A stretch of DNA of 64,000 nucleotides from contig LUUF01000043.1 of the NCBI GenBank assembly GCA_001644045.1, forward strand, positions 124,001 to 188,000, in the 5' to 3' direction. The translations under genes and the position numbers were made by a program. Each line of letters opens with the position of its first letter. Position 1 is the stretch's first letter. Shown piece by piece: positions 5,952-31,165 of the stretch. Origin of the DNA: Methylomonas methanica. GTDB lineage: Bacteria; Pseudomonadota; Gammaproteobacteria; Methylococcales; Methylomonadaceae. A model generated the notes under the pieces. That model was not told the DNA's origin and did no database searches. It was given only the letters and a program-made list of their open reading frames with translations.

Positions 5952-5967
5952 TGTAGCAAAGCCGACA
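5952..5967. promoter_or_regulatory. NifA upstream activator site (TGT-N10-ACA)
   Basis: TGTAGCAAAGCCGACA matches the NifA site consensus exactly. With one flanking base each side it reads TTGTAG-N6-CGACAA, close to the other three sites in the window. It lies 96 bp upstream of the sigma-54 element of iscA, a typical distance for DNA-looping activation. Confidence 0.88.
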
Positions 5968-6063
5968 AAAGCTCCCGGTTTGTTGTGAAACGGCGTGCCG
6001 ATTAAGGTTGGCCTGCTGCCGGTGAGTGAGCAATTTCAGCGGCTTAGCCGAAATTTTCGCGTA

Positions 6064-6079
6064 TGGCATGCTGGTTGCT
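6064..6079 (+). promoter_or_regulatory. Sigma-54 -24/-12 promoter of iscA-nifUS
   Basis: TGGCATGCTGGTTGCT matches TGGCAY-N5-TTGCW exactly, with the obligatory GG-N10-GC spacing. It lies 48 bp before the iscA start. Together with the NifA site at 5952 it predicts nitrogen-controlled transcription. Confidence 0.92.
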
Positions 6080-6126
6080 TTATCTGTTTACAAAATCAAT
6101 GCCAAACCCGTTCAGGAGACTTAAAG

Positions 6127-6483: not shown

Positions 6484-6501
6484 GAATTCGAGGAAATAGC
6501 T

Positions 6502-7413
6502 ATGTGGGATTATTCAGATAAAGTAAAAGATCATTTCTTCAACCCCAAAAATGCCGGCGCGGTAGCCGGAGCCAACGCGATTGGCGAAGTGGGTTCCATC
6601 AGCTGCGGCGACGCGTTGCGTCTGACTTTGAAAGTTAATGACGATACCGAAGTGATCGAAGATGCCGGTTTCCAAACCTTCGGTTGCGGTTCGGCGATTG
6701 CCTCGTCTTCGGTATTGACCGAGATCATCAAAGGCTTGACCCTGGACGAAGCTTTGAAAGTCACCAACCAAGACATCGCTTCCGAGTTGGACGGTCTGCC
6801 GCCGGAAAAAATGCATTGCTCGGTGATGGGGCGCGAAGCGCTGCAAGCCGCCGTTGCGAATTATCGCGGTGAAGAATGGAAAGACGATCACGAAGAAGGC
6901 GCGCTGGTTTGCAAATGCTTTGCGATCGATGCGGTGATGATAGAAGAGATGGTGTGGGCCAACAAGTTGCGTACCGTCGAGGATGTGACCAACTACACCA
7001 AGGCTGGCGGCGGTTGCGCGGCCTGCCATGAAGACATCGAAGCGATCCTGGAAAAAGTCCTGAAGGAACGCGGCGAAACCTTCGATCCAAGTGCCGCGCC
7101 GGTTGCCAAACCGGAGCCAGTGGTTGCTAAAGGACCGCTGACCAATCTGCAACGTATCAAGAAAATCGAGGAAGTGATCATGTCCTTCCGGCCGCAATTG
7201 ATGGCCGACGGCGGCGACGTCGAGTTGGTGGAAGTGGTCGACAAAACCGCTTACGTGAACATGACCGGCGCTTGCAACGGTTGCCAAATGTCGGCGATGA
7301 CTATCGCCGGTATCCAACAGCGCTTGATGGAAGTGATGGGCGAATTCATTAAAGTCGTTCCTGCCTCGCAAATGCCGAAATTGGTGACCATAGAGGAGGC
7401 AAGTCATGCCTGA
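6502..7413 (+). CDS. nifU: NifU Fe-S cluster scaffold
   Basis: The 303-aa protein has the three classical NifU modules. The N-terminal IscU-like scaffold has C35, C62 and C106. The central permanent [2Fe-2S] domain has C137, C139, C172 and C175. The C-terminal Nfu domain has C258 and C261 ([10 protein letters not shown]). Positions of the first seven cysteines equal those known for Azotobacter NifU. It assembles transient clusters from iron and NifS-derived sulfur for nitrogenase. The gene overlaps nifS by 8 bases, implying translational coupling. Confidence 0.98.
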
Positions 7414-8620
7414 TATTTATCTGGATAACAACGCGACCACCAAGGTGGATAGCGCGGTGGTCGATGTGATGATCCCGTATTTTACCGAGCAATTCGGCAA
7501 CCCTTCATCGATCCATCGCTTTGCCGACGGCGTGGCGAAGGCGATCAAGAAAGCGCGTTCGCAGGTGCAAGAGCTGATCGGCGCGGAGCACGATTCGGAA
7601 ATCATTTTCACCTCCTGCGGCACGGAATCGGATTCGACCGCGATTTTGTCGGCGATCAAGGCGCAGCCCAATCGTAAGGAAATTATCACCACCTCGGTGG
7701 AGCATCCCGCGGTTTTGGCTTTGTGCGAAAACCTGGAGAAAGAAGGCTACACGATACACCGGATGCCGGTGGACAAATGCGGCCGCTTGAATCTGGAGGC
7801 CTATAAAAACCTATTGTCCGATGAAGTGGCCATAGTGTCGGTGATGTGGGCGAACAACGAAACCGGTACCATCTTCCCGGTCGTGGAAATGGCCGAGATG
7901 GCCAATGCCGCCGGCGTGATGTTTCATACCGACGCGGTGCAGGCAGTCGGCAAGATTCCGATGATGTTGCAAGACACCAAGATCGATATGTTGTCGATTT
8001 CCGGTCACAAATTGCATGCGCCCAAAGGAATTGGCGTGTTGTATCTACGCCGTGGTACCCGCTACCGTCCTTTGTTACGCGGTGGACATCAAGAGCGCGG
8101 TCGCCGGGCCGGCACCGAAAACACTGCCTCCATTGTTGGTTTAGGCAAAGCCTGCGAATTGGCGATAGAGCACATGGAATACGAAAACGTGCAGGTCAAA
8201 GCCATGCGCGACCGCCTGGAGCAAGGCATCACCGCAGCGGTTCCGCATTGCTTTATCACCGGCGATTTGAACAACCGCTTGCCCAATACCACAGACATTG
8301 CGTTCGAGTACATCGAAGGCGAAGCGATATTGATGCTGCTGAACAAAGCCGGCATCGCGGCATCCAGCGGTTCGGCGTGTACTTCCGGTTCCTTGGAGCC
8401 ATCGCATGTGATGCGGGCGATGGACATTCCCTATACTGCCGCGCACGGCACTATCCGCTTCTCGTTCTCTCGCTATAACAATATGAGCGAGGTGGACGAA
8501 GTGTTGAAAGTGATGCCTAGCATCGTCGCCACCTTGCGCAAACTGTCGCCTTATTGGGATAGCGTGAACAATTGCCCGGTTGCCGATCCCGAGCAAGCAT
8601 TCCAGCCGACTTACGCCTAA
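7406..8620 (+). CDS. nifS: NifS cysteine desulfurase
   Basis: The 404-aa PLP enzyme is a class V aminotransferase-fold protein. The PLP lysine is K202 ([14 protein letters not shown]) and the persulfide-carrying cysteine is C325 in [16 protein letters not shown]. It converts L-cysteine to L-alanine and passes sulfur to NifU. The N-terminus [12 protein letters not shown] is typical. It is the last gene of the iscA-nifU-nifS operon; a strong hairpin follows at 8641-8662. Confidence 0.98.
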
Positions 8621-8640
8621 AGGTTTTCTCGGCCACTCTT

Positions 8641-8662
8641 CGCTCCCGCAAAAGCGGGAGCG
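8641..8662 (+). terminator. Hairpin terminator after nifS
   Basis: CGCTCCCGC-AAAA-GCGGGAGCG forms a perfect 9-bp stem with a tetraloop, 20 bases after the nifS stop and just before the convergent gene ending at 8669. The T-tract is weak (GTCTTAG), so efficiency is uncertain. Confidence 0.7.
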
Positions 8663-8668
8663 TCTTAG

Positions 8669-9025
8669 CTAAATCCCGCCATAAATCCTGTTCACCATTC
8701 GGTAAAACCACCTTGGTTTACTCAGGATAATTCCAAACGCGACAACCGGCGTCACCGGTACCGGCGCAATATCGACAATGAATAATCCCAATAAGCTTAA
8801 AAAGCAGTTGATTCTGCTTTGCCTGGTTTGTTCGGCTGAATAGGTCGGGGATACCTCGGCGGGTACACTTGCATTAGCGTACATATTCTCGATTAAGCCC
8901 CTAAACCAGAGCGGCCGCAGCGCAACCACATACATGCCTATCAAGCAGCCGGGTGAAACCGGCCCGAAGCCTATGATGGCAAACAGGGAAAATGCGGCAA
9001 GGCATTTGATTTGGGATGAATTCAT
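8669..9025 (-). CDS. Small membrane protein of unknown function, 118 aa
   Basis: I do not recognise it. Two hydrophobic stretches are visible, at residues about 8-34 (LAAFSLFAIIGFGPVSPGC onward) and about 75-100 (CFLSLLGLFIVDIAPVPVTP, VVAFGIIL). Between them is a polar loop rich in Ser, Ala and Thr. The ends RPLWFRGLIENMY and KPRWFYRMVNRIYGGI resemble each other, which suggests an internal duplication of a TM plus WFRG/WFYR amphipathic motif. It is convergent with nifS and shows no nif-type promoter. Confidence 0.6.
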   Translation of the reverse strand: MNSSQIKCLAAFSLFAIIGFGPVSPGCLIGMYVVALRPLWFRGLIENMYANASVPAEVSPTYSAEQTRQSRINCFLSLLGLFIVDIAPVPVTPVVAFGIILSKPRWFYRMVNRIYGGI

Positions 9026-9113
9026 AAACCATACTGGGTCTGAAAAACAAAAATTACGGGCAATACCAACGACACTGTGGTTGCTGCGCTACGCCTCCCT
9101 AGACGATTAACAA

Positions 9114-9139
9114 AAAAGGCGGTTGTTTAACCGCCTTTT
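9114..9139 (-). terminator. Rho-independent terminator of PEP-CTERM gene
   Basis: AAAAGGCGGTT-GTTT-AACCGCCTTTT is flanked by six As, read as a T-run on the minus strand. It lies 24 bases beyond the stop of the minus-strand gene at 9163 and could work in both directions. Confidence 0.85.
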
Positions 9140-9162
9140 CTGGATTTGGATGCGCTATTTGA

Positions 9163-9792
9163 TCAAATTTTCCGGGTTTTTCTGGTAAGACCCAGACCGG
9201 CTAATGCGGTGCCGAACAACCATACGGCGCCTGGTAAAGGGACGGCGGCAACGTTAAAGTTGATATTGTTAATGCCATTGTTCCAGTCGGTTCCCAAAAT
9301 AATATTTAGCGAATGTGCGGTTAGGTTGGGTGAAAAAGTCTGTGTAGCGAAACGAGAAACCTCGTAGGGCCCGTAATTGACCAGTATATTGGAAAAATCA
9401 TTGCCATCGACCACTCGGAAATCAGTAGCAGTCAACGTGGAGTTAACGGCTCCCGTTGGATATGCCGCAACGTCGAAACTATTCAGGGTTATAGATTGAT
9501 TAGGATTAACCGCAGTCAACTTGATGCTTAAAAGCAAACCGCTGGTATGGGCAAACGCCGCGGTATTGAGGTCTGCGTATCCTGCATTCCACAACAAAAC
9601 ATCTGAATATGCCTCCGAGCCGTTCAGGTTCAAGCTTGAATAAGATACCGTCACATCAGGTGTAGAGCCATATCCGATTGGAATTGGGTCATAGTTGTTA
9701 AAGGGCAGTAACGAGTCAAAATTAATTGTGGCCGCTTGAGTGTTAAATGCGGCGGCAATCAGAATGAGTGGATAAATTTTTTTGGATAACAT
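9163..9792 (-). CDS. PEP-CTERM sorted exported protein
   Basis: The 209-aa protein has a signal peptide (residues 1-20, LSKKIYPLILIAAAFNTQA) and a C-terminal sorting tail VPLPGAVWLFGTALAGLGL followed by basic residues (TRKTRKI). That tail is the PEP-CTERM signal read by exosortase/archaeosortase-type EpsH enzymes in exopolysaccharide-producing bacteria. The body is Asn/Ser/Thr-rich and beta-prone, with no catalytic motif. It is likely a secreted or surface matrix protein. It stands alone, with a terminator directly downstream. No exosortase gene is in this window. Confidence 0.85.
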   Translation of the reverse strand: MLSKKIYPLILIAAAFNTQAATINFDSLLPFNNYDPIPIGYGSTPDVTVSYSSLNLNGSEAYSDVLLWNAGYADLNTAAFAHTSGLLLSIKLTAVNPNQSITLNSFDVAAYPTGAVNSTLTATDFRVVDGNDFSNILVNYGPYEVSRFATQTFSPNLTAHSLNIILGTDWNNGINNINFNVAAVPLPGAVWLFGTALAGLGLTRKTRKI

Positions 9793-10144
9793 CTTAAAAC
9801 TCCTTCAATGTTTGTTTAAGTAAGTCCATCGATTCACTGCAACCCGGCAAAAGTCGGCACAGCTTTTGGTTCACTAAACAGTGCAGCAAACGGCCGGCCA
9901 TTTTTTTTTGTTTCTTTAATGTTGATTTTATTCAATGGCTTAGTGGTGGCTTTCTGTCGAGATTCTATACGTAGGTACTTTAAAGGCCGGATTGTGTAAA
10001 TAAAGCTGACACTGTTGATGCGGTGCAATATTTCGAATCCATCAATTAAACGCTAATTCCGGAACTCGCAATATTTTCCCGATTTGCAAACACTGGAAAA
10101 GGGGAAAACAGCGAAGGGATTGGCTGCGTTCCCCGAACTTTGAC
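9793..10144. other. Intergenic region without recognised gene
   Basis: This 352-bp stretch between two minus-strand PEP-CTERM genes holds an A/T tract (run of Ts near 9902-9910) and no ORF with convincing coding character. No sigma-54 or NifA element was found. A promoter for the gene starting at 9792 is presumably within it but I could not identify one. Confidence 0.4.
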
Positions 10145-11128
10145 TTACGCCGGACGGCGTTTGGCGAAAAGCAAGCCCGTCATGCCGCTAACAAAAAATA
10201 CGATAGAGCTAGGCAGCGGTACCTGACTGACCACGGCACCGGCAAATAGCGCATGAACTTGCGTGGTTGGATGGAAATCGTCCCAAAACACTCGGCTAGC
10301 CGGATCGGAACACGCATCCGGCAAACTTACGCAGGCTTCCGTGGCATTGGTGAACCCGTAGGCAGTAGGATTTTGCACCAGATTGTTAAAAAAATTATAA
10401 GAATCGAATTGCACGATTTGGGTATTGGAGAACGCTGTGGACAAGGTTCCTAGCTGGTCGGCCAGCTCTTGGTTGAATTCGAGGGAATAGTTTTGTGCTG
10501 CCGCGGCCGCAATTGGAGGAAGTGATTGCGCAAAGGGGGTAATGCTCAAATCCGGTAAATTCGGCACCACGATATGCTGCGCGCCAATGCCGATTAAAGC
10601 GCCGACGTAGCCGGCGATATTCCGCGCCGCCAATGTTGCTGAGTCGCCGGTCAAAAAATCGTTAGCCCCGCCCCATACAAAAAACAGCGAGTCTGGCGTG
10701 ACAGCGTTGATAAAGCTCGGTGTCGATGAAAAAAGGCCGACTTGTTGCGTCATGCCGGGCGCGAATTTCGTGCCTGGGCTGGTTTGGCTGCCGCCATCGC
10801 CCTCGTTGCCTATCCCGGTGGTCGAACCCGCGACCGCAAAATTAAAGAAATTGCCGGCATTGCCGCCGCCGGACAGAACGGAGTTAGCTATATATTCCAC
10901 GGCTGTGGGACCGTTGCTAATGCGCCCTTGGTAATAAGGCGGACAGGGGTGGTCAGGATCGCATTGCCCGGCCAGGTTATAAGCACTTAATACCGAGGAA
11001 GCGCTGGTTCCGCTATCCGAGAGACTATCCCCGAAAACGAATAAATTTGAAAAAGGCGTAGCTCCAACTTGGCTGCTAGCCAGGAAAGATGTGAAAAACA
11101 GCGCGAGAACATAGGGTTTCTTCATCAT
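10145..11128 (-). CDS. GDSL/SGNH-family esterase with PEP-CTERM tail
   Basis: The 327-aa protein has a signal peptide (KKPYVLALFFTSFLASSQVGA). The SGNH hydrolase block I FGDSLSDSGT carries the nucleophile Ser, GGANDF is block III, and block V WDDFHPTTQ holds the Asp-His pair. Spacing matches the phospholipase/lecithinase/hemolysin branch of GDSL lipases. The C-terminus VPLPSSIVFFVSGMTGLLF plus AKRRPA is a PEP-CTERM variant, so the enzyme is exported and sorted to the surface. Likely activity is an ester hydrolase of unknown substrate. The start is a double ATG; either codon may be used. Confidence 0.9.
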   Translation of the reverse strand: MMKKPYVLALFFTSFLASSQVGATPFSNLFVFGDSLSDSGTSASSVLSAYNLAGQCDPDHPCPPYYQGRISNGPTAVEYIANSVLSGGGNAGNFFNFAVAGSTTGIGNEGDGGSQTSPGTKFAPGMTQQVGLFSSTPSFINAVTPDSLFFVWGGANDFLTGDSATLAARNIAGYVGALIGIGAQHIVVPNLPDLSITPFAQSLPPIAAAAAQNYSLEFNQELADQLGTLSTAFSNTQIVQFDSYNFFNNLVQNPTAYGFTNATEACVSLPDACSDPASRVFWDDFHPTTQVHALFAGAVVSQVPLPSSIVFFVSGMTGLLFAKRRPA

Positions 11129-11452
11129 GTCTATCTCCGTTGGGTTGTGTGTGAATCTTCAAGAATTTACTGGATAAAGCCCATCGCCGTGTAAGCAGCC
11201 ATCCGGAAGGCATAATATTTTCAGACTGCTTTTTGTTGCAACCTATTAGTGTGTTTATCCGCGCTCTAACTAAGATCCGGGTTTCGCCAAAATCGCTCGA
11301 ATCGATACCTTGCGCGCTATCTCAACAAGTGCCACGGAATTGAGATGACGCCAGCGTAACTCAGGCTGAGCATTCTCGTCTAACGTTTTAATAGTGCTGC
11401 GGGTCTTTCCTTGTATATGGGGATGGCCTGATTTGCATATGTGTTGATGGAT

Positions 11453-11468
11453 TGTCGCGTTTACGACA
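11453..11468. promoter_or_regulatory. NifA upstream activator site for nifV operon
   Basis: TGTCGCGTTTACGACA matches TGT-N10-ACA exactly and extends to the perfect inverted repeat ATTGTCG-N6-CGACAAT. It is centred about 100 bp upstream of the sigma-54 element at 11552. Confidence 0.92.
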
Positions 11469-11551
11469 ATTCGTCTCTCTCCCCGGAAGTTGTCTTGTCG
11501 GCATTACGCCAACGCGTCTTTCCAGCCCATAAATTTCCACGGTTTCCCAGT

Positions 11552-11567
11552 TGGCAAGTCTTTTGCA
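11552..11567 (+). promoter_or_regulatory. Sigma-54 -24/-12 promoter of nifV operon
   Basis: TGGCAAGTCTTTTGCA has GG-N10-GC spacing and a perfect TTGCA -12 element. It lies 70 bp before the nifV ATG. The rest of the 509-bp gap upstream of nifV (11129-11637) holds the NifA site and otherwise nothing recognisable. Confidence 0.92.
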
Positions 11568-11637
11568 TTAATCCTATCGAAGGCGTTATTCACGCTCCGG
11601 TTTTCAAATATTTAACTTTGCGACTCAAGGTTTAGCC

Positions 11638-12762
11638 ATGAAAAGCAACTCCAGAACCATCGTCATCGACGACACCACGCTCCGCGACGGCGAACAATCG
11701 GCCGGCGTAGTGTTCTCGTTGGAGGAAAAGTTGGCGATTGCCGGACAGTTATCCGCGCTGGGTGTGCCGGAGTTGGAGATTGGTATCCCGGCCATGGGTG
11801 CACAGGAACGGGACGAAATAAAAGCCATTGCCGCATTAAAACTGCCCAGCAATTTATTGGTGTGGTCGAGGATGCGGGAAGAAGATTTGCAACACTGCCT
11901 GGGTTTGGGCGTCGGCACGGTGGATTTATCGATTTCCGCGTCCGATCAACATATCCAACACAAACTGAAACAAAGTCGGGCCTGGGTGCTGGCTACCATC
12001 GAGCGCTGCGTGAAGACTGCGGTCGATGCCGGTATGCAGGTTTGTGTGGGTGCCGAGGACGCTTCCCGCGCCGACGGCGATTTTCTGGCGTTGATGGCCG
12101 AGGCTGCGCAAGCTGCCGGCGCCTGCCGGATTCGCTTCGCCGATACGGTCGGCATTATGGAACCGTTCGGTGTATTCGAAGCGATTCGCAAACTGCGCGC
12201 CGTCACCGACATGGATATCGAAATGCACGCCCACGACGATCTGGGCTTGGCAACCGCCAACACCTTGGCCGCGGCATATGCCGGCGCCACTCACGTCAAT
12301 ACCACCGTTAACGGTTTGGGCGAACGGGCCGGCAATGCCGCTTTGGAAGAAGTAGTGGTGGGCTTGAAGCAACTATACGGCTTCGAAACCGGCGTGGATT
12401 TGCGCAATTTTCCAGCTCTGTCCCGTCAGGTTGCGACCGCTTCCGGCGACACGATAGGCAGCCGCAAAAGCCTGATCGGCCGCGATGTGTTCAGCCACGA
12501 AGCCGGCATCCACGTCGACGGTCTGCTGAAAGATCCCAACAATTATCAAGGTGTCGATCCCGCCTTGGTCGGTCGTAGCCACCAGCTAGTGCTTGGCAAG
12601 CATTCCGGCAGTCAAGGCGTGATGCATGCCTACAAGCAACTGGGTATCCAAATTAACCGCTGGCAGGCCGGTCGCCTGCTGCCGTTGATCCGCGAGTTTG
12701 TCAGTTTGCACAAACGCGCACCACAATCGACCGATTTGAATCAATTTTTACACAGCCTATAG
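11638..12762 (+). CDS. nifV: NifV homocitrate synthase
   Basis: The 374-aa enzyme is of the HMGL-like/isopropylmalate synthase family. The N-terminal [12 protein letters not shown] motif carries the catalytic Arg/Asp, [13 protein letters not shown] holds the metal-binding His-x-His, and [14 protein letters not shown] is the second signature. It condenses acetyl-CoA with 2-oxoglutarate to homocitrate, the organic ligand of FeMo-cofactor. The length is typical of NifV and lacks the leucine-regulated C-terminal domain of LeuA. It heads the operon nifV-ORF55-cysE-TPR-ORF40-nifW-nifZ-nifM-clpX under its own NifA/sigma-54 promoter. Confidence 0.96.
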
Positions 12763-12773
12763 CGAGGTGTCAG

Positions 12774-12941
12774 ATGAGTAGCAATCGTCAAAAACCAGCC
12801 GTGCCCAGCACCGCCAAAGTCGACGTACCACAGCACAATCCGGCGCAGCACGAACTGCAGGATGATCGTTACCCCGGTACATTTTTCCGGGTGCCTGGCG
12901 TGCCCATGCCCGGTAAAACCACCTGGAGCTTGGCAAAATGA
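12774..12941 (+). CDS. Small nif-operon ORF, 55 aa
   Basis: This short ORF starts 11 bases after the nifV stop with a GAGGTGTCAG ribosome site, and its TGA overlaps the cysE ATG (ATGA). The product reads [19 protein letters not shown], then about 20 residues of polar, Gln/His-rich sequence, then [19 protein letters not shown] and WSLAK. It is soluble, Pro-rich and has no cysteine. I do not recognise the family. The tight coupling on both sides argues that it is translated, perhaps as a small accessory protein or to couple nifV and cysE translation. Confidence 0.65.
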
Positions 12942-13714
12942 TGTTTTTCTCGCCGTCGCGTCCCAGCGTTGCGTCCGGACTCTGGCAAGACTGGCGCGAC
13001 GATGTGGCCTGCGTATTTGCCCGAGATCCGGCGGCGCGCGGCTTGCCGGAAGTGTTATTGGCTTATCCCGGCGTACATGCGGTATTGTTGCATAGGGTAA
13101 CCAATCGCTTGTGGCATGCGGATTGGAAATTGACCGCGCGTTTACTGGCGGCTTTTGCCCGCTGGCTGACCAATGTCGATATTCATCCCGGCGCGACGAT
13201 AGGCAAGCGCTTTTTTATCGACCACGGAGCCGGCGTGGTGATCGGCGAAACCGCCGAGATCGGTCACGACGTGACGATGTATCACGGCGTGACGCTGGGC
13301 GGCACTACTTGGAACAAGGAAAAGCGCCATCCGACGCTAGGCAATAACGTGCTGATCGGAGCCGGCGCCAAGATCCTCGGTGCGATCACCTTGGGCGACA
13401 ACGTCCGGGTCGGCGCCAACTCGGTGGTGATCAAAGATGTGCCGCCTTGCTGCACGGTGATAGGAATTCCCGGCCGTATCATTCAACAAAAAGGTTTGAA
13501 GATTCAAGATCCGCGCGGTATCGATCTGGACCACCATCTGGTGCCGGATCCGGTCGGCAAAGCGTTGAGCTGTCTAGTGGACCGCCTGGACGAGCTGGAA
13601 AGCAACCAAAAACGCTTTGTGGTGGCGGAAGAGACTTGCGGTAGCTGCGAAGCGGAAGGTGTCTGTCACGGCGAGGATGTGGTGATGCTGAAACAAGCGG
13701 CGGGCGGTAAGTGA
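12938..13714 (+). CDS. cysE: Nif-linked serine O-acetyltransferase
   Basis: The 258-aa protein has an N-terminal helical segment and a left-handed beta-helix of hexapeptide repeats (about 85-185: [36 protein letters not shown]). It acetylates serine to O-acetylserine, the cysteine precursor. In Azotobacter a dedicated cysE copy follows nifV and feeds cysteine to NifS. The C-terminal extension carries three cysteines ([12 protein letters not shown]) not found in standard CysE. They might sense redox or bind a cluster, which is speculation. It overlaps the 55-aa ORF upstream and the next gene by one base downstream. Confidence 0.94.
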
Positions 13715-14253
13715 TGGAAATGGATTTACTGCAATTCGACGCCAAGGATCTGTATTACGAGAAAGCGGACAGCCAGGAAGTGGAGGACTTGATCCAATAT
13801 GCCTCCGAACTTTACGCCAGCGGCGAAGCGGAGTTACCGCTGTTACAGGCTTATTTACGAGCACCGGAATCCTTGAACGTGCTGGTGTCGTTGAATCGAT
13901 TTTATTACTACCAACATCGGCTGACGGACGCCTTGTTGATTTCCGAAAGAGCGTTGACGCTGATCCGACCCGGTATCGATTTTCCGGAAGATTGGCGGCA
14001 GCTGGAAAGAGAACACATCAGCGAGGCGCCGAAAGACTTGCTGACCCGGATCAGGCTGTATTTGTTCACCTTGAAATCAATCGGATTTCTGAACATGCGC
14101 TTGGAAAATCTGGAGTTGAGCCGGGCGATTTTCGAAAAGTTGGTGTCATTGGACGACAAAGACCGGATTGGGGCACGAGGTTTGTTGGAATTGGTCGTGC
14201 GTCGTCAGGAAGCGGCGGAAGGGATTTTCCGCATGCCGCAAGCTTTCGGGTAG
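13714..14253 (+). CDS. Helical-repeat (TPR-like) protein of the nif operon
   Basis: The 179-aa protein is all-helical by inspection, with TPR-like helix pairs such as LLQAYLRAPESLNVLVSLNR, RLTDALLISERALTLI and LENLELSRAIFEKLVSLDD. It has no catalytic motif. The ATG at 13714 overlaps the cysE stop (TGATG). It lies between cysE and nifW and is transcribed with them, so a scaffolding or chaperone role in nitrogenase maturation is plausible but unproven. I recognise it only as a nif-neighbourhood hypothetical; it is not NifW, which is the gene at 14456. Confidence 0.8.
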   Translation: MEMDLLQFDAKDLYYEKADSQEVEDLIQYASELYASGEAELPLLQAYLRAPESLNVLVSLNRFYYYQHRLTDALLISERALTLIRPGIDFPEDWRQLEREHISEAPKDLLTRIRLYLFTLKSIGFLNMRLENLELSRAIFEKLVSLDDKDRIGARGLLELVVRRQEAAEGIFRMPQAFG

Positions 14254-14327
14254 GCATTGCCCATTAAGCAGATGCAATCGATAAGTGATGTTTGTTGTTC
14301 CGCGCAATTAACCTAAAGGTGATCGCC

Positions 14328-14450
14328 ATGATGAAGAAACAAAAATCCGATCCATTTTTGGCCCAAACAGCTGTGATGCTGGTGGTTTTATTAGTGGTGT
14401 ACGCATTGGGAGAACAACCTGCCAATCTTGATCACCTGATGATGAGGTAA
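14328..14450 (+). CDS. Small single-span membrane ORF, 40 aa
   Basis: ATG ATG AAG AAA starts a 40-aa protein with one clear transmembrane helix (residues 14-28, AVMLVVLLVVYALG), a basic N-terminus (MMKKQKSD) and a short His/Met tail. An AAAGGTGATC ribosome site precedes it. Its TAA overlaps the candidate nifW ATG at 14450. N-in topology is expected from the positive-inside rule. I do not recognise it, and it has no known nif counterpart that I can name. Confidence 0.6.
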   Translation: MMKKQKSDPFLAQTAVMLVVLLVVYALGEQPANLDHLMMR

Positions 14451-14455
14451 TGACG

Positions 14456-14770
14456 ATGAGTTTAGAAGAAGATATGGAAGAGCTGGAGGCCGCGGAAGAT
14501 TTTCTGCGGTATTTCGAGCTGGAATACGATACCACCGTCGTCCACGTCAACCGGCTACATATCCTGCAGCGTTTCCACAATTATCTGAGTCAGGCCGGCG
14601 ATAACATGCCGGAAGACGAAGATGCGCAACGGGAAGTCTACAAAAAGCTGTTGCAGCGCGCTTACAGCGATTTCGTGGATTCCGATGCGCAGACCGAAAA
14701 AGTATTCAAGGTCTTCAAAATGATGGAACCGCAAACCGTGTTTGTTTCACTAGGCGACATTAAAACATGA
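14456..14770 (+). CDS. nifW: NifW nitrogenase stabilising/protective protein
   Basis: The acidic protein of about 104 aa shows the NifW core LEAAEDFLRYFELEYDTTVV, then NRLHILQRFHNYL and RAYSDFVDSDAQTEKVFKVF. I prefer the ATG at 14456 (MSLEED) because ATGAGGT lies 9 bases upstream. The ATG at 14450 overlaps the previous stop and has poor spacing. NifW interacts with the MoFe protein and NifZ and affects oxygen stability and P-cluster maturation. The stop overlaps nifZ by 4 bases. Confidence 0.94.
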   Translation: MSLEEDMEELEAAEDFLRYFELEYDTTVVHVNRLHILQRFHNYLSQAGDNMPEDEDAQREVYKKLLQRAYSDFVDSDAQTEKVFKVFKMMEPQTVFVSLGDIKT

Positions 14771-15243
14771 TAGAAGAACGTTACGACGAAGAGCGCTTCG
14801 AATTCGGCGAGCGAGTTAGGCTGACGCGTAACGTTCGCAACGACGGCACTTACCCGGGTATGGATGTCGGCGACTTCTTGCTGCGCCGGGGTAGTGTCGG
14901 CAACGTCATCGAAGTCGGTACATTTTTGCAAGACCAAGTGATCTATACCGTGCATTTTCTGGATGCCGGACGCATGGTGGGCTGTCGGGCCGAAGAGTTG
15001 ATCTCTGCCGATGCACCTTGGAATCCCAGCCGTTTCGAGTTCCGCGATCAGGTGGTTTGCACGATCGACATCCCGACTCAAGACGGCAACTTTCCTGCCG
15101 GCACCCAAGGCGAAATCCTGAAAGTGTTGCGAGACAGCGATCCCTTGCTCTACCACGTGCGTTTTCCGGGTAAAACCATGCAGGTGCCGGAGAGCGTGTT
15201 GGAGCCCGCGGACCCGGCTACGTTTAAAGAACCGGAGGCATAG
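14767..15243 (+). CDS. nifZ: NifZ, two NifZ domains
   Basis: The 158-aa protein starts with the canonical NifZ block FGERVRLTRNVRNDGTYPG, then GDFLLRRGSVGNVIEVGTFL and DQVIYTVHFLDAGRMVGCR. A second, weaker copy follows (FEFRDQVVCTIDIPTQDGNF, GTQGEILKV, LYHVRFPGKTMQVPE). It acts in formation of the second P-cluster of the MoFe protein with NifW. It overlaps nifW and ends 2 bases before the nifM ATG. Confidence 0.95.
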   Translation: MIEERYDEERFEFGERVRLTRNVRNDGTYPGMDVGDFLLRRGSVGNVIEVGTFLQDQVIYTVHFLDAGRMVGCRAEELISADAPWNPSRFEFRDQVVCTIDIPTQDGNFPAGTQGEILKVLRDSDPLLYHVRFPGKTMQVPESVLEPADPATFKEPEA

Positions 15244-15245
15244 TG

Positions 15246-16097
15246 ATGAGCCAGACGTCGATAGAGCCTTACACCCTGTTGCGGGCCTCGTTGAGCCTAT
15301 TCCAGAAGGCGCCGGCCGAATTGGAGCAACTGCAATTGCGCCAGGTGGAAGTGCAAGCCAAAAACGAATACGAGATAGAAGGCCGGGTATTGAATTCGGC
15401 CGAAGCCACCGGTGTGGTAATTTCCGATACGGAACTGGATAGAGCCTATAAGGAAGTGCGCGGCCGTTTCGAAGACGAAGAGGCATTTTTAGCGGCGTTG
15501 AGCGCCAACGGTTTAGATATTGATCTGTTGAAAGCCGCCTTGTACCGGCAGTGTAAGGTCGATGCGGTAATGGATAGAGTGGCCGCGCGGGCGCCCAAGG
15601 TCAACGAGGTGGAAATCGGCATTTTCTACCACTCGCACCCGGAAAAGTTTCACAAACCCGAGCAGCGGCAGGCCAGGCACATCTTGATCAGTATCAATCC
15701 GGATTATCCGGACAATACCCGCGAGGCAGCCTGGCGTCGGATTAACGAGATTGTCGGCACCTTGAAACGCAAACCGCATAAATTTGCCGATCTGGCGCTG
15801 AAATATTCGGAATGTCCGACGGCGGTGCAGGGCGGTGAAGTGGGTACAGTAGCCAAGGGCACCTTGTTTCCGGAACTGGATGCGGTATTGTTTGCTTTAA
15901 AAGAAGACGCCATCAGCGATGTGGTGGAAACCGAGATGGGCTTTCATGTGATTCAGTGCATGAAAATCGTCCTCGCCGAAACCATGTCCTTAAAAAAAGC
16001 GACACCGAAGATTCAGCAGATCATGCAGGATCGTTACCGCAGAAATTGCCAGCGCACGTGGCTGGCCAGTCTGCCCGCAGTCAACAGGAGTGCCTAA
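15246..16097 (+). CDS. nifM: NifM peptidyl-prolyl cis-trans isomerase
   Basis: The 283-aa protein has an N-terminal SurA-like helical part and a parvulin domain at about 130-245 (RQARHILISINPDYPD, ALKYSECPTAVQGGEVGTV, ETEMGFHVIQC). NifM is required to activate the Fe protein (NifH). I use the ATG at 15246 although a GTG stands immediately before it. It lies in the nifWZM-clpX string and overlaps the possible upstream GTG start of clpX. Confidence 0.94.
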   Translation: MSQTSIEPYTLLRASLSLFQKAPAELEQLQLRQVEVQAKNEYEIEGRVLNSAEATGVVISDTELDRAYKEVRGRFEDEEAFLAALSANGLDIDLLKAALYRQCKVDAVMDRVAARAPKVNEVEIGIFYHSHPEKFHKPEQRQARHILISINPDYPDNTREAAWRRINEIVGTLKRKPHKFADLALKYSECPTAVQGGEVGTVAKGTLFPELDAVLFALKEDAISDVVETEMGFHVIQCMKIVLAETMSLKKATPKIQQIMQDRYRRNCQRTWLASLPAVNRSA

Positions 16098-16098
16098 C

Positions 16099-17400
16099 AT
16101 GGTAAAAGAACCCAAGCATTGTTCGTTTTGCGGTATCGAAGCGTCGGCGGCCGTGCCGATGATCGCCGGCACGGAAGGCTATATCTGCGAGGCTTGCGTG
16201 ATGTTGGCCAGTCAGGTGGTATCCAGCTGGGGTAAGAAAAAAGAATTGGCCGATATGCAAGGGCCGCTGCCCAAGCCCGCCGAAATGAAGGCGATGCTCG
16301 ATCAATACGTGATTGGGCAAGACTTGGCTAAGGAAATCCTGTCGGTAGCGGTTTACAACCACTACAAGCGCTTAAAACACGTCGGTAACAAAACCGGCGG
16401 CTTGGGCGAAGCCGATGACAGTATCGAAATCGGTAAATCCAATATTCTGATGATAGGTCCGTCCGGCACCGGGAAAACCCTGCTGGCCAGCACCTTGGCA
16501 AAAATCGTCGGCGTGCCGTTTGCGGTAGCGGATGCCACCACGCTGACGCAGGCCGGTTATGTCGGCGACGACGTGGAGAATATTCTGGTGCGCTTGCTGG
16601 ACGTGGCCGACGGCCAGATCAGCAAGGCCGAATGGGGCATGGTCTATATCGACGAGGTGGACAAGATCGCCCGGAGCCCGGAACAGGCCTTCGGTACCCG
16701 CGACGTTTCCGGCGAAGGTGTGCAACAGGCATTGTTGCGCTTGGTCGAGGGCTCGCATGTCAAGGTTCCTTCCAAGGGCCGGCGCAAGGATCACAGCGGC
16801 AACGATTCGGTGATGGTGGATACCAGCAATATTTTGTTCATAGCCGGCGGCGCGTTTCCGGGCTTGGAAAAGCATGTGGAAAAACGCCTGCTGCCGCCGA
16901 AAACCGCCATCGGTTTTCATGCCGAAGTCAGCAATCCCGACGACAAGCCTACGCTGGAAGCGATGTTGAATGCCACCCAGCCGGACGATTTGAAACGCTT
17001 CGGTTTAATACCCGAGTTTATCGGCCGCTTCCCGGTGCTGGCGCCGCTGGAGCCGCTGGATGTGGATGCCTTGATTCAGGTATTGACCGAGCCGAAAAAT
17101 GCGTTGGTTAAACAATACCAACAGCTATTCGCTTTTGATGAAGTGGAACTGGAGTTTACCCAGGATGCCCTGGTGGAAATCGCCGAGAAAGCCATAGCCC
17201 GCAACACCGGTGCGCGCGGCCTGCGCGGCATTATGGAACACGTATTGCGCCGCACCATGTTCGATCTGCCTTCGCGCCCGGATGTCGAACGCTGCATCGT
17301 CAACGCCGACGTGATTCGGGGTGAGGGCGAGATTGAAGTGGTGCCGCGCGAGAAATCCGGCGAGGCGGATGATTTAAAGCGGTTGTCGGGAGGGGAGTGA
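16099..17400 (+). CDS. clpX: Nif-linked ClpX-type AAA+ unfoldase
   Basis: The 433-aa protein has the N-terminal zinc-binding domain (CSFCG and CEAC), Walker A GPSGTGKT, Walker B VYIDEVDKIA, the pore loop region and sensor motifs. The ATG at 16099 follows CAGGAG at 8 bases. Several positions differ from housekeeping ClpX, which suggests a nif-dedicated paralogue. In Azotobacter the clpX2 gene lies at the same place after nifM and influences levels of NifB/NifEN; the same role is inferred here. No clpP is adjacent. It is the last gene of the nifV operon. Confidence 0.93.
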   Translation: MVKEPKHCSFCGIEASAAVPMIAGTEGYICEACVMLASQVVSSWGKKKELADMQGPLPKPAEMKAMLDQYVIGQDLAKEILSVAVYNHYKRLKHVGNKTGGLGEADDSIEIGKSNILMIGPSGTGKTLLASTLAKIVGVPFAVADATTLTQAGYVGDDVENILVRLLDVADGQISKAEWGMVYIDEVDKIARSPEQAFGTRDVSGEGVQQALLRLVEGSHVKVPSKGRRKDHSGNDSVMVDTSNILFIAGGAFPGLEKHVEKRLLPPKTAIGFHAEVSNPDDKPTLEAMLNATQPDDLKRFGLIPEFIGRFPVLAPLEPLDVDALIQVLTEPKNALVKQYQQLFAFDEVELEFTQDALVEIAEKAIARNTGARGLRGIMEHVLRRTMFDLPSRPDVERCIVNADVIRGEGEIEVVPREKSGEADDLKRLSGGE

Positions 17401-17560
17401 TTTCCTGTTTTTTGACACTTTAGATTGGTGTCGCTGTCGCGACGGATGCTTTTTAAGTCGGTGCTCGGACCGACAGCCGAGATACTTTTCTTTGCTTGTC
17501 CAAAGAAAAGTATCCAAAAGAAAAGACACCCGGATGCCGCGTTGACCCTGCGCTCCGTAG

Positions 17561-17652
17561 CGTTTATCGAGGGTCGGCAGAAGGGGCTTCCCAGCCCCTC
17601 CGCCGACGCGCCGCTTCCTTGCGGCGCCCCTTCGGGTTGTTCTCGATAAACG
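17561..17652. repeat. Large palindromic intergenic element
   Basis: The 11-bp arms CGTTTATCGAG (17561-17571) and CTCGATAAACG (17642-17652) enclose two internal hairpins: AGGGGCTTCCCAGCCCCT near 17581 and a GCCGC/GCGGC stem near 17612. Upstream, 17484-17524 repeats the string AAAGAAAAG. The 382-bp gap between clpX and the glutaredoxin gene holds this and the element at 17702 but no gene. It looks like a dispersed REP/BIME-type repeat. Confidence 0.65.
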
Positions 17653-17701
17653 CCACGGTGCTCGGCGCGGCATACGGGAGATAGTCTACGTAGCTGCGTA
17701 G

Positions 17702-17728
17702 GATGGGCTGAACAACGTGAAGCCCATC
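17702..17728. repeat. Inverted repeat GATGGGCT / AGCCCATC
   Basis: Perfect 8-bp arms with an 11-base loop of the form GATGGGCT-N11-AGCCCATC. It resembles the widespread intergenic class GGTGGGTT-GAACG-AAGTG-AACCCA. It lies 55 bp before the glutaredoxin-BolA gene. Confidence 0.55.
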
Positions 17729-17782
17729 GGTCGCGAAATGACGATTTGCTCTTCAGAATTTTAGTTAATTGAGAATACCACT

Positions 17783-18400
17783 ATGAGCGTTAAAGAAAAA
17801 ATCTTGCAACAACTTGCCGAAAACCCGGTGATTATTTACATGAAAGGCGTGCCTAGCGCACCGGAGTGCGGGTTTTCCGCCAAGACCGTGGGCATCTTGA
17901 ATGAAACCAAGGTCCCCTACGCTTACGTCAACGTATTGCAATCGCCGTTCATCCGCGAAAAGCTGCCGTCTATTTCCAAATGGCCGACGTTTCCGCAAGT
18001 GTTCATCAAGGGCGAACTGGTCGGCGGTGCCGACATCGTCGAATCCATGTACAAGGACGGGACCCTGCTGCCGCTATTGCAAGCGACTGTTCAACCAGCC
18101 GAGAGCGCGGACGCCAGTCAAACTATTACCCATTCCGAAGTGGAAGCCTTGATTTTGGCCTCCTATCCCGGAGCGACCATCGGCATCGAAGGAGCGGGTT
18201 GCGATTTAAACATTACCGTGGTTAGCGAATTGTTCGCCGATCAAGCCATGATCAAGCAACACCAAGGCGTAATGGCGACGCTGAGCGCGCCATTGGCTAG
18301 CGGCCGGCTGCATGCCGTCACGTTGAAAACCCATACGCCCGCAGCCTGGGCCGCGCTACAACCGGCGGCAAATCCGGGCTTGCTCCAGATTCAAATCTGA
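17783..18400 (+). CDS. Monothiol glutaredoxin (CGFS) fused to BolA domain
   Basis: The 205-aa protein joins two partners usually encoded separately. Residues 1-105 form a Grx4/GrxD-type monothiol glutaredoxin with the CGFS cysteine at C29 and the glutathione-binding WPTFPQVFIKGELVGGADI. A short linker (about 106-116) leads to a BolA domain (about 117-195) with VEALILASYPGATIGIEGAG, HQGVMATLSAPL and the conserved C-terminal His in GRLHAVTLKTH. Grx-BolA pairs share a [2Fe-2S] cluster and serve in Fe-S trafficking. Directly upstream of nifF and near the nif genes, it probably handles clusters during nitrogen fixation, like the Grx5-nif gene of Azotobacter. No sigma-54 promoter was found upstream. 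Confidence 0.9.
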   Translation: MSVKEKILQQLAENPVIIYMKGVPSAPECGFSAKTVGILNETKVPYAYVNVLQSPFIREKLPSISKWPTFPQVFIKGELVGGADIVESMYKDGTLLPLLQATVQPAESADASQTITHSEVEALILASYPGATIGIEGAGCDLNITVVSELFADQAMIKQHQGVMATLSAPLASGRLHAVTLKTHTPAAWAALQPAANPGLLQIQI

Positions 18401-18424
18401 TTTAGTTAACAAGGAGATATCACT

Positions 18425-18955
18425 ATGGCAAAAGTAGGCATTTTTTTCGGTACCGATACCGGCAACACTCGCAAAGTCGCCAAGACTATCGCCACCAAGT
18501 TGGGCGATGCCGCCGACAAACCGGTCAATATCAATAAGGCCTCCGTGGATGATTTACTGGCCTACGACGTATTGATTTTGGGTTCGCCCACGTACGGCGA
18601 AGGCGAATTGCCGGGCATGAGCGCCGGACACGATAACGAAAGCTGGGAAGAGTTTCTGCCGACTTTGGCCGGCGCGGATTTTACCGGCAAAACCGTGGCG
18701 ATCTACGGTTTGGGCGACCAGGAAGGTTATCCCGGCCATTTCGTCGATGCCGTGGGTTTCCTGTACGACGCTTTTGCCGATGCCGGCGCGACCATCGTCG
18801 GTATGACCAGTAGCGAAGGCTATACCTTTAAAAAGTCCAAAGCCTTGCTGGGCGACCAGTTCGTTGGCTTGGCTTTGGACGAAGACAACCAGAAAGAGCT
18901 GAGCGAAGGCCGTCTCAGCGATTGGCTGGCTTCGATTTCCGCCGCCTGGGCTTGA
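18425..18955 (+). CDS. nifF: NifF-type long-chain flavodoxin
   Basis: The 176-aa protein has the FMN phosphate loop GTDTGNTRKVAK near the N-terminus, SPTYGEGELPG and GLGDQEGYPGHFVDA, and the long-chain insertion. It matches NifF, the electron donor to the nitrogenase Fe protein. An AAGGAGATATCACT ribosome site lies in the 24-bp gap after the glutaredoxin-BolA gene, so the two are one transcript. Confidence 0.95.
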   Translation: MAKVGIFFGTDTGNTRKVAKTIATKLGDAADKPVNINKASVDDLLAYDVLILGSPTYGEGELPGMSAGHDNESWEEFLPTLAGADFTGKTVAIYGLGDQEGYPGHFVDAVGFLYDAFADAGATIVGMTSSEGYTFKKSKALLGDQFVGLALDEDNQKELSEGRLSDWLASISAAWA

Positions 18956-19415: not shown

Positions 19416-19431
19416 TGTTGAATGGCTAACA
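19416..19431. promoter_or_regulatory. NifA upstream activator site before 106-aa gene
   Basis: TGTTGAATGGCTAACA fits TGT-N10-ACA exactly, with flanks giving TTGT-N10-ACAA. It lies 114 bp upstream of the sigma-54 element at 19545. Confidence 0.85.
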
Positions 19432-19544
19432 ATTTCGCCCGGATGTTGTGCGGTTGTTGCAATGCTGCCTCGAAATAATACACGCAAACTGTGATGCACC
19501 CCTGAAAGTCCTTGTCGCCCGGGCCTTGCGGCGGTTTCATTCCG

Positions 19545-19560
19545 TGGCATTGATGTTGCT
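19545..19560 (+). promoter_or_regulatory. Sigma-54 -24/-12 promoter of 106-aa gene
   Basis: TGGCATTGATGTTGCT is a full match to TGGCAY-N5-TTGCW with GG-N10-GC spacing. It is 95 bp upstream of the ATG at 19656. With the NifA site it makes the next gene a predicted nif-regulon member. Confidence 0.9.
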
Positions 19561-19655: not shown

Positions 19656-19976
19656 ATGAGCGAAGTTCTATTGGTGGGTTTGATTATGTTGATTGTGGCG
19701 GCCTGCGCATTCGCGCCCCTGGGTTGCATGCTCTCGGCTTATGCAAAGTCGTCGAGTAAATCCGGCGGTGCTGGTAAAGCAGTAGCAGGTAGCGCCGGTG
19801 ATTTAGGGAGGGGTTTGCCCGAGGATTCCATCCTCAAACGGCATTTTTTGACGCAATTGCAAAGCGAGATTGAAGCGACTTTGTTTCCGCGGCCAACCGA
19901 CTCGATGCTGCAACGGCATTACGATTCGTTGGTGGCGGCCAAGGTGGAAAACCGATTGCAAATTATCGGAAAATAA
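19656..19976 (+). CDS. Unknown NifA-regulated membrane protein, 106 aa
   Basis: The N-terminus has one strong transmembrane segment (residues 4-30, VLLVGLIMLIVAACAFAPLG, then CML). A Ser/Gly/Ala-rich flexible linker follows (about 31-50), then a charged helical tail with a repeated LKRHF/LQRHY pattern (SILKRHFLTQLQSEIE and SMLQRHYDSLVAAKVEN). The two His/Arg helices look like an internal duplication of about 30 residues. I do not recognise the family. It is preceded by a complete NifA/sigma-54 promoter, so expression during nitrogen fixation is predicted. It lies upstream of modBC, separated by a hairpin, so a role in molybdenum or electron supply is possible but unproven. Confidence 0.8.
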   Translation: MSEVLLVGLIMLIVAACAFAPLGCMLSAYAKSSSKSGGAGKAVAGSAGDLGRGLPEDSILKRHFLTQLQSEIEATLFPRPTDSMLQRHYDSLVAAKVENRLQIIGK

Positions 19977-29182: not shown

Positions 29183-30106
29183 ATGACTACTGAAGTCTCC
29201 AAACCCTTGATTTTGATCGTCGACGATACGCCTACCAACATTCAGGTGTTGGCGGAAAACTTGATCGACGAGTATCGAATCAAGGTGGCGGTCAGCGGCG
29301 AGGCGGCATTGGAGGCTATAGAGCGGCAAGGCGCGCCCGATTTGATTCTGCTGGATGTGATGATACCGGGTATGGATGGTTACGAAGTCTGCCGGCGTCT
29401 GAAAAGCGACCCGCAAACAGCGGCTATTCCGGTGATATTCGTCACGGCGATGAACGCCGCCACCAACGAAGAATACGGGCTGAATCTGGGGGCGATGGAT
29501 TACATTACCAAGCCGTTTTATTTGCCGGTGGTCAAGGCGCGGATCCGCAATCATATTCGCCTGAAACAAATGACCGATATGTTGGAAGCGATGGCCTGGA
29601 TGGATGGCCTGACCGGAATACCCAATCGCCGGCGTTTCGATCAGGTCTTGGAAAACGAATGGAAACGAGCGCAGCGTAATCAGTTGCCGCTGGCTTTAGT
29701 GATGGTGGATGTGGATTATTTTAAAGCCTATAACGACTGTCACGGCCATGGCGCGGGCGACATTTGCCTGCGGCAGGTGGCAACGCTATTGGCCGCCTCG
29801 GTGAGTCGATCCGGCGATTTGGTGGCGCGTTACGGCGGGGAGGAGTTTGTGATGCTGATGCCGGAAACCGACGCCGAAGGCGCGCAACGCGTCTCCGAAC
29901 TGCTGTGCCGGCGCGTTGAAGCGCAGCAAATTCCGCATACCGGCTCCAGCGCGTCGCCTTGGGTGACGATTAGCGCGGGGTTTGCGGTAGTGGTTCCGGA
30001 GCTGCAACAGTTGCCGTTTGAGTTGCTGGACGAAGCCGATCGTCAGTTGTACTTGGCGAAAGAAAGCGGCCGAAACGGTGCGCGCGGCAACTATTCGACC
30101 GTATAA
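29183..30106 (+). CDS. Response regulator diguanylate cyclase (REC-GGDEF)
   Basis: The 307-aa protein has a receiver domain (1-125) with phospho-Asp D58 (LILLDVMIPGMDG). The GGDEF domain has active-site GGEEF at 218-222. An RSGD motif at 209-212, five residues before it, matches the c-di-GMP product-inhibition I-site RxxD. It synthesises cyclic di-GMP from GTP and probably receives phosphate from the hybrid kinase HPt. It is 6 bases after the kinase stop and is the output of this receptor-lipocalin-YfiR-kinase block. Confidence 0.95.
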   Translation: MTTEVSKPLILIVDDTPTNIQVLAENLIDEYRIKVAVSGEAALEAIERQGAPDLILLDVMIPGMDGYEVCRRLKSDPQTAAIPVIFVTAMNAATNEEYGLNLGAMDYITKPFYLPVVKARIRNHIRLKQMTDMLEAMAWMDGLTGIPNRRRFDQVLENEWKRAQRNQLPLALVMVDVDYFKAYNDCHGHGAGDICLRQVATLLAASVSRSGDLVARYGGEEFVMLMPETDAEGAQRVSELLCRRVEAQQIPHTGSSASPWVTISAGFAVVVPELQQLPFELLDEADRQLYLAKESGRNGARGNYSTV

Positions 30107-30145: not shown

Positions 30146-31000
30146 TTAAGCTGCGACAGCCGCGGCTTGTAAGGATTGCAGGAAGTCCTGGCAGTCGGCG
30201 TTAATCAGTTCAAAGCCCATTTTCGCGCTAAAGCGTTTTTCCTTGTCGGTAGGGTTTTTCCGTAAAAACCAGCCTCTATGTTCCTCGGCACCGTAGGTTA
30301 TATCGCTCATCACCATGCGCTCGGAATCGCGGTTTAGCGGCAAGCCCAGCAACAGGTATTTTTTGCCTTTGCGGTAATCCTTTAAAAAGTCGGGAATCGC
30401 GAAACCGCCCATTAGTTCGGTGATGTAATCGACGTAGTCGGCATCGGACGCAATGTAATTGGATTCCGGTCTTGGCGTACCCATCGGTTTAAACAAAATC
30501 GGCAGGTTTCTATCGACTTGTTCCTGCGGAATTTCGAAATAGCTGCTGCCGTCGTAATGATAAATTTTGAAACGAAAGGCGGTCGCGACGATGCGCGCCA
30601 CGCCAACGATTAATGTGTGTTCTTCGTCGGAATAACTATCTTGTAACTGGGTGTCGCGATTGACGTCGACCACGTATTTGGGCCGCCATTCTTTCAGCCA
30701 ATCGTGCATGGAAGCCCGGGTGTATTGAATTTGTCCGTAAGTCTTGTCCAGAAACTGGGATACATAGTTACGGCCGCGCTTCAGCTCCTGGTTCATCGCC
30801 GCGCGCGGAAACTCGTACATCAATTTCGGTGCCATCGGTTTGCCGCCGTTCATCGCCAGAATCAGGCTGTTGCTGTCGGCCGGCATCGGTTCGTGCGTCA
30901 GTTTACTTTTGGCATCGAATACTGCCCCCGGCCCCAGATAAGGGATGACTTGGTTATCGTACAAGCCGCTTAGTATTTCGGTAATTACGTTGTTAGCCAT
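30146..31000 (-). CDS. SIR2-like protein under NifA/sigma-54 control
   Basis: The 284-aa protein begins MANNVITEILSGLYDNQVIP followed by YLGPGAVFD (residues about 21-29), which resembles the NAD-binding start of SIR2-like domains. KKYLLLGLPLNRDSERMVMS and WFLRKNP lie near the C-terminus. These motifs fit a SIR2_2-type fold, but I am not certain. I chose the ATG at 31000 because GGAGCG lies 6 bases upstream; earlier in-frame codons fall inside the promoter. A complete NifA/sigma-54 promoter precedes it, so it should be expressed during nitrogen fixation. It stands alone, so it is transcribed by itself. Possible roles are NAD-dependent regulation or protection of nitrogenase; no function can be asserted. 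Confidence 0.85.
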   Translation of the reverse strand: MANNVITEILSGLYDNQVIPYLGPGAVFDAKSKLTHEPMPADSNSLILAMNGGKPMAPKLMYEFPRAAMNQELKRGRNYVSQFLDKTYGQIQYTRASMHDWLKEWRPKYVVDVNRDTQLQDSYSDEEHTLIVGVARIVATAFRFKIYHYDGSSYFEIPQEQVDRNLPILFKPMGTPRPESNYIASDADYVDYITELMGGFAIPDFLKDYRKGKKYLLLGLPLNRDSERMVMSDITYGAEEHRGWFLRKNPTDKEKRFSAKMGFELINADCQDFLQSLQAAAVAA

Positions 31001-31038
31001 AAAACGCTCCATCGGTAAGTAAAGTGATATTTGACTAA

Positions 31039-31054
31039 AGCAAGTTTTAATCCA
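31039..31054 (-). promoter_or_regulatory. Sigma-54 -24/-12 promoter of SIR2-like gene
   Basis: On the minus strand the sequence is TGGATTAAAACTTGCT, with GG-N10-GC spacing and a perfect TTGCT. The -24 part differs from TGGCAC at its fourth base. It lies 39 bp upstream of the ATG at 31000. Confidence 0.8.
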
Positions 31055-31149
31055 GTTTGTTGATGGACTCGCAAGCTTTATTCCATCTAGGGTTGTGCGG
31101 GGTGGGGAGCGGCTGGGAATGGTAACAACCGTATAAACTTCGGTGAAAT

Positions 31150-31165
31150 TGTCGGAAGTGCGACA
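31150..31165. promoter_or_regulatory. NifA upstream activator site of SIR2-like gene
   Basis: TGTCGGAAGTGCGACA matches TGT-N10-ACA and extends to TTGTCG-N6-CGACAA, the same extended form as at nifV. It is 96 bp upstream of the -24 element. The rest of the 393-bp gap (31001-31393) holds only a REP-like palindrome. Confidence 0.88.

Follow-up and report, generated by a model that had tools for sequence, protein, structure and literature searches.

The pnfA-type gene and its surroundings

The window analysed here is the whole 64,000-nucleotide stretch of Methylomonas methanica contig LUUF01000043.1, and our subject is a gene on its minus strand that encodes a 284-residue protein. Comparison with relatives in other genomes shows a gene that is kept with nitrogenase, that has its own conserved, putative NifA/sigma-54 promoter, and whose product has a predicted SIR2_2 fold. 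It is very probably the ortholog, in a Methylomonas-like methanotroph, of pnfA of Pseudomonas stutzeri. The gene, the NifA upstream activator site (UAS) and the -24/-12 element all lie where the initial annotation had placed them, as follows.

30146..31000, minus strand: pnfA-type gene with SIR2_2 fold, 284 aa; start ATG at 31000-30998; stop codon included
31150..31165, minus strand: putative NifA UAS, TGTCGCACTTCCGACA, TGT-N10-ACA on the minus strand; assigned from pattern and conservation
31039..31054, minus strand: putative sigma-54 -24/-12 element, TGGATTAAAACTTGCT, 16 bases, TGG-N10-GCT; GG at 31053-31052 and GC at 31041-31040
30659..30661, minus strand: codon of Asn114, the aligned counterpart of the catalytic Asn of SIR2 proteins (T-T-N-Y-D motif)
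30482..30484, minus strand: codon of Met173, the residue that in the family alignment occupies the catalytic His position of SIR2 proteins (K-x-H-G motif)

The downstream gene (29183-30106) is convergent to the pnfA-type gene, and upstream the next minus-strand gene ends at 31394, past the UAS. It is plausible that the pnfA-type gene is transcribed alone. The initial annotation had also set the gene far from the nif genes. This stands for nitrogenase itself, because tblastn found no NifH in the window and the nifD of this genome lies on another contig (C71). It does not stand for nif-type genes in general: what we take, judging the translations by eye, to be nifU, nifS, nifV, cysE, nifW/nifZ/nifM-type genes and a flavodoxin gene occupy about 5995-18955 of the window.

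The relatives form two clades, and the promoter is conserved in one of them

Clade A comprises the window protein and proteins of other Methylococcales, Zetaproteobacteria, a Pseudomonadaceae-like family (f6) and other Gammaproteobacteria, and its genes mostly have their own promoter. Clade B, from rhizobia and others, is about 21 to 29% identical to clade A and is encoded in nif operons, in the order nifA-nifB-fdx-nifZ-nifT-SIR2 on Rhizobium etli p42d and nifS-nifT-SIR2-nifB in Bradyrhizobium. A tree of 48 rows, built without an outgroup, split the two clades at 100/100, with very long branches. From synteny and labels, we infer that f6 is Pseudomonadaceae, g454 Stutzerimonas and g460 Azotobacter.

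The TGT-N10-ACA pattern is frequent by chance. The window holds 14 such sites, against 8.7 expected (standard deviation, 2.9), and shuffling gave at least 14 in 5 of 100 trials. We therefore rejected the UAS count by itself as promoter evidence, and the case rests on conservation. Relatives were taken from genome contigs, many of them metagenome-assembled genomes, as the best 80 of 286 encoding stretches. A UAS and a -24/-12 element at proper spacing precede the gene in 77 of these 80, compared with 46 of 8961 random ATGs (0.5%) in the same loci. A -24/-12 element of the set quality lies 40 to 80 bp upstream of the ATG in 79 of the 80. Its GG is 49 to 64 bp upstream of the ATG (median, 54; 79 loci), and the distance from the UAS start down to the GG is 71 to 185 bp (median, 112; 77 loci). 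The three relatives lacking the pair are L044, which perhaps lies within a longer operon, L084, whose UAS is damaged (both judged by eye), and L106.

NifH is encoded upstream and divergently in 50 of the 80 loci (tblastn), and both elements are present in 48 of the 49 nifH-divergent loci of an open reading frame cluster listing. Another 20 loci have more than 1.8 kb upstream that holds no NifH (0/20, tblastn), and 18 of them carry both elements. The remaining 10 have an upstream stretch too short to judge NifH. The upstream stretch of one locus, L087, carries the end of nifH. Because the nifH-less loci keep both elements, the promoter probably belongs to the pnfA-type gene and is more than part of the nifH promoter. 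The window and several other Methylomonas have the layout without an adjacent NifH, and this layout appears to be a move within the family, because relatives are divergent from nifH in the 50 loci above and in all 20 f6 loci. The UAS is present in every f6 locus and both elements in 14 of the 20; among further distinct clade A loci, both are present in 10 of 13 (the misses are L141, L146 and L148). The pair was found in none of 17 clade B loci and none of 4 f5 loci (G346 is in both counts).

The gene very probably corresponds to pnfA

pnfA (PST1325) was described in P. stutzeri A1501 in 2010 as a gene divergent from nifHDK, with the same two promoter elements, whose expression requires nifA and rpoN (PMC2820453). 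According to the same source, a nonpolar mutant had 23% nitrogenase activity with nifH transcription unchanged, and complementation restored activity (data not shown there). Without oxygen, the mutant behaved much like the wild type. It no longer fixed nitrogen with nitrate support, and it could still grow in nitrogen-free semisolid medium (PMC2820453). That paper reports that diazotrophs have five close homologs (49 to 92%) and that ten others are 20% identical, a division that our clades A and B match. A further listing gives PST_1325, immediately before nifH, the label "SIR2 family protein" (PMC11332353), and tables give a 9- to 10-fold induction (PMC6053447 and PMC2820453).

The published PnfA has a mass of 31.7 kDa and the window protein 32.5 kDa, and the window protein is 49 to 53% identical to the f6 clade A proteins. 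With promoter, size and relatives all fitting pnfA, the earlier description of the protein as unassigned no longer holds.

Related proteins have also been recorded elsewhere. Rcc03262 of Rhodobacter capsulatus was present at 7.3 and 6.6 fmol in the wild type and was undetected in a nifA1-nifA2 mutant (PMC6925177). ZMO1821 of Zymomonas increased on N2, a deacetylase function being proposed as a guess, and Nif proteins were found acetylated (PMC8600466). It lies within the nif cluster; 27 of 29 detected cluster proteins rose, and ZMO1821 is not named among them in the available text (PMC8594446). Its induction is not purely linked to N2, because phenolic aldehydes raise ZMO1821 too (PMC4578398). 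In Rhodovulum, a SIR2 family gene follows nifT (PMC9412634). Position and label suggest that Rcc03262 and ZMO1821 belong to clade B. Our search of open-licence papers found no tested biochemical function for these proteins.

The NifA/sigma-54 control proposed in the initial annotation is thus supported by comparison: the predicted promoter pair is conserved, pnfA depends on nifA and rpoN, and Rcc03262 disappears in the nifA1-nifA2 mutant.

The gene accompanies nitrogenase

In a family sample of 101 genomes, we counted as full-length relatives those with E <1e-130 and as nifD those above the curated cut-off. There were 50 full-length carriers and 51 nifD genomes, and 49 genomes had both. The gene was present in 49 of 51 nifD-positive genomes versus 1 of 50 others (Fisher p 3e-25, uncorrected for kinship). 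The carrier without nifD, G004, has a nifE-type match and is 77% complete. The two nifD genomes outside the overlap are G036, which has no relative, and G099, in which a relative from clade B (25% identical) takes the place of the clade A protein. Two of the 50 copies (G080 and G007) have one internal stop each. Complementation of the two clades' active sites by each other found no support: with the window protein as query, a full clade A protein and a clade B protein occurred together in 0 of the 101 genomes. Scraps of a pnfA-type gene were found in G025, which has no nifD match. As a separate observation, three genomes of the window's family (G023, G043 and G093) have defects in both genes at once, with nifD as well as the pnfA-type gene broken, partial or missing.

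A profile search of 274 Gammaproteobacteria found 24 carriers. Twenty-one have nifD above the cut-off, and in G626 nifD is split over two contigs; the other two are G472 (81% complete) and G552 (weak match). Four nifD genomes lack the gene (G451, G462, G564 and G581), which is thus present in 22 of 26 nifD-bearing genomes. Therefore, the gene is common but not universal among the sampled gammaproteobacterial diazotrophs. Confinement of the gene to diazotrophs is seen in the 49 of 50 family-sample and 22 of 24 class-sample carriers that have nifD. In a phylum sample of 299 genomes, all 16 carriers have nif-type matches, 14 of them with nifD above the cut-off and two (G168 and G353) with less than that.

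The protein has a SIR2 fold with an incomplete catalytic pair

The SIR2-like fold suggested earlier was borne out. Pfam SIR2_2 (PF13289) matched the window protein at 27 bits (cut-off, 24.5; E 5.5e-6), and the fold match to SIR2 NADases covers residues 1-284, the whole protein. Links to the Protein Data Bank (PDB) were obtained with profiles, a single sequence being insufficient: the window protein alone retrieved only MvaT, at chance level (E 2.1). No NCBIfam model matched, and PADLOC returned nothing for the window protein. The clade B protein P0121 gave weak ThsA and LmuA profile matches in PADLOC.

The active site of SIR2 NADases and deacylases contains Asn and His, and the window protein has Asn114 but Met173 at the His place. 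Classical sirtuin deacetylases have four zinc cysteines; the window protein has a single Cys, C270. With the f6, f5 and class loci counted in, the complete catalytic pair, Asn plus His, is present in 2 of 532 relatives, or 2 of the 497 distinct sequences. Asn is present in 332 distinct sequences, and where His would be expected 330 of these carry Met, Leu or Thr; the 165 without Asn all have Trp instead. Arg115 is unchanged in 235 of 235 sequences. The nucleotide-pocket positions G23, D116, P172, G174, Y189 and G219, assigned by motif alignment, are among the shared invariants. The incomplete pair speaks against the "NAD-dependent deacylase" label that databases give to part of the family, and it makes doubtful the earlier suggestion that the protein modifies a protein of nitrogen metabolism. 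NAD sensing, which had been proposed alongside, is possible.

Proposed mechanism and alternatives

We suggest, as the best overall explanation and a probable one, that the pnfA ortholog supports nitrogenase post-transcriptionally as a SIR2-fold binder. NifA and sigma-54 would express the PnfA-type protein alongside nitrogenase. PnfA is placed after transcription because the P. stutzeri mutant loses activity with nifH transcription unchanged, and what it supports may be the activity, the maturation or the protection of nitrogenase, chiefly during oxygen or nitrate respiration. The SIR2 pocket may bind an NAD-like nucleotide and/or a protein partner, and PnfA would be a binder, sensor or scaffold, not a classical deacylase or NADase. 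The conserved pocket and the mostly incomplete catalytic pair suggest such binding without canonical turnover. We hold this part more tentatively, at somewhat less than an even chance.

Several observations weigh against this explanation. The gene is missing from 25 of 39 nifD genomes of the phylum sample. In the 50 loci where the gene adjoins nifH, joint loss may be a single deletion. The link to pnfA is indirect, built on the relatives' synteny, promoter, size, label and identity levels. The identities fit roughly: g454 proteins are 76 to 82% identical to L156 (g460, name inferred), and the published value for P. stutzeri versus Azotobacter vinelandii is 72%. The window gene is not adjacent to nifH, and at the threshold used a -24/-12 element is missing from 6 of 20 f6 loci and from 3 of the 13 additional clade A loci. 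Two relatives, L161 and L165, have both Asn and His. Finally, Asn114 and Asp116 are invariant in clade A (a label partly defined by Asn), so that catalysis may have been kept or changed; with Arg115 also invariant, the protein may perform a modified chemistry.

It is rather unlikely that the protein helps to assemble or stabilize nitrogenase purely as a protein, with the SIR2 fold as a scaffold and no bound nucleotide. Its neighbours, nifHDK in clade A or nifB, nifZ, nifT and nifS in clade B, agree with such a role, as does the mutant that loses activity and keeps nifH transcription. The invariant pocket positions listed above argue against it.

More speculatively, nitrogen fixation may have co-opted a defence-type SIR2 NADase domain whose active site was split two ways: PnfA would have kept Asn and lost His, and the alphaproteobacterial nif-operon branch would have lost Asn and mostly kept His. 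Both branches would be NAD-state sensors that let nitrogenase work only as long as respiration delivers electrons and ATP, as a layer apart from NifL/NifA and DraT/DraG. We consider this reading unlikely.

Electron transfer, the earlier guess for PnfA, was argued from partial UspA/ETF-like similarity, and the mutant defect does vary with oxygen and nitrate respiration. However, the full-length SIR2 fold match displaces that argument, and the Pfam scan found no Fe-S or flavin family in this single-Cys protein. We regard this role as quite improbable.

Slightly less probable still is an enzyme with NAD-dependent deacylase or ADP-ribosyl activity whose modification of nitrogenase or NifA would control them, along the lines guessed for ZMO1821 and in the initial annotation. 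Some clade B proteins are named "SIR2 family NAD-dependent protein deacylase", Zymomonas Nif proteins are acetylated and ZMO1821 is induced (PMC8600466), and Asn114 and Asp116 are invariant in clade A. The replacements of His or Asn described above argue against it, as does the single Cys; SIR2_2 proteins reportedly lack the zinc module that canonical deacetylases need.

The analogy to DraT/DraG regulation drawn in the initial annotation is doubtful. We checked 35 of 38 class and phylum carriers for DraT (leaving out G000, G472 and G552), together with 14 hand-picked genomes of the 30 nif-positive ones without the gene (4 from the class, 25 from the phylum, and G036). DraT was present in 11 of 35 carriers versus 10 of 14 noncarriers and, if anything, is commoner without the gene. 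The window's own genome has DraT, on another contig. These counts give no indication that the pnfA-type gene works with DraT/DraG, and the missing DraT link also counts against the modifying enzyme. We note that draT directly adjoins the pnfA-type gene, in the nifH region, in three Gammaproteobacteria (G477, G516 and G571).

A phage-defence SIR2 NADase that lies near nif genes by chance would explain why the closest solved folds are defence NADases and why P0121 weakly matches ThsA, but it is highly improbable given that PADLOC has no match for the window protein, that the gene tracks nitrogenase behind a putative NifA promoter, and that the catalytic pair is incomplete.

Other NifA-type promoters in the window, and significance

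A second orphan gene, apparently NifA driven, lies at 19656-19976 (plus strand), with modB on one side and the flavodoxin end of the nif cluster on the other. It encodes 106 aa with a hydrophobic N terminus, and its promoter region (19416-19560) contains a strong -24/-12 element (TGGCATTGATGTTGCT) and TGT-N10-ACA. Further NifA/sigma-54 pairs lie at 5952-6080 (plus strand, iscA/nifU-type region) and 11453-11570 (plus strand, before nifV), and these two outscore the pnfA-type -24/-12 element (11 versus 8).

The nitrogenase phenotype of pnfA was already known; the whole-protein SIR2 fold and the incomplete catalytic pair are new here. In place of the electron-transfer guess, they offer a hypothesis that can be put to the test, nucleotide binding and partner capture. 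The automatic "NAD-dependent protein deacylase" label, which is close to the Zymomonas acetylation hypothesis, may be wrong. pnfA is also a candidate part for moving nif genes into new hosts.

Comparison with known systems

The SIR2 NADases ThsA, DSR2, KomC and human FAM118B share the fold over the full chain of the window protein. However, they have the active-site Asn and His and process NAD, whereas in the window family the pair is complete only in the two distinct sequences noted above. Among nif-cluster proteins, Rcc03262 of R. capsulatus, ZMO1821 of Z. mobilis and the product of the R. etli p42d gene after nifT are SIR2_2-type like the window protein; in print, Rcc03262 is NifA dependent and ZMO1821 is induced on N2. 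The p42d protein differs from the window protein in that it belongs to clade B, is encoded in a nifB/nifZ/nifT operon without its own promoter pair, and has Trp for Asn. Compared with P. stutzeri PnfA, the window gene lies away from nifH, although 50 of 80 relatives share the nifH-divergent layout, and it is known from sequence, whereas the mutant phenotype belongs to the P. stutzeri gene. The likeness to PnfA lies in the SIR2-family label, the size of about 32 kDa, its own TGT-N10-ACA and -24/-12 elements, and its occurrence with nitrogenase.
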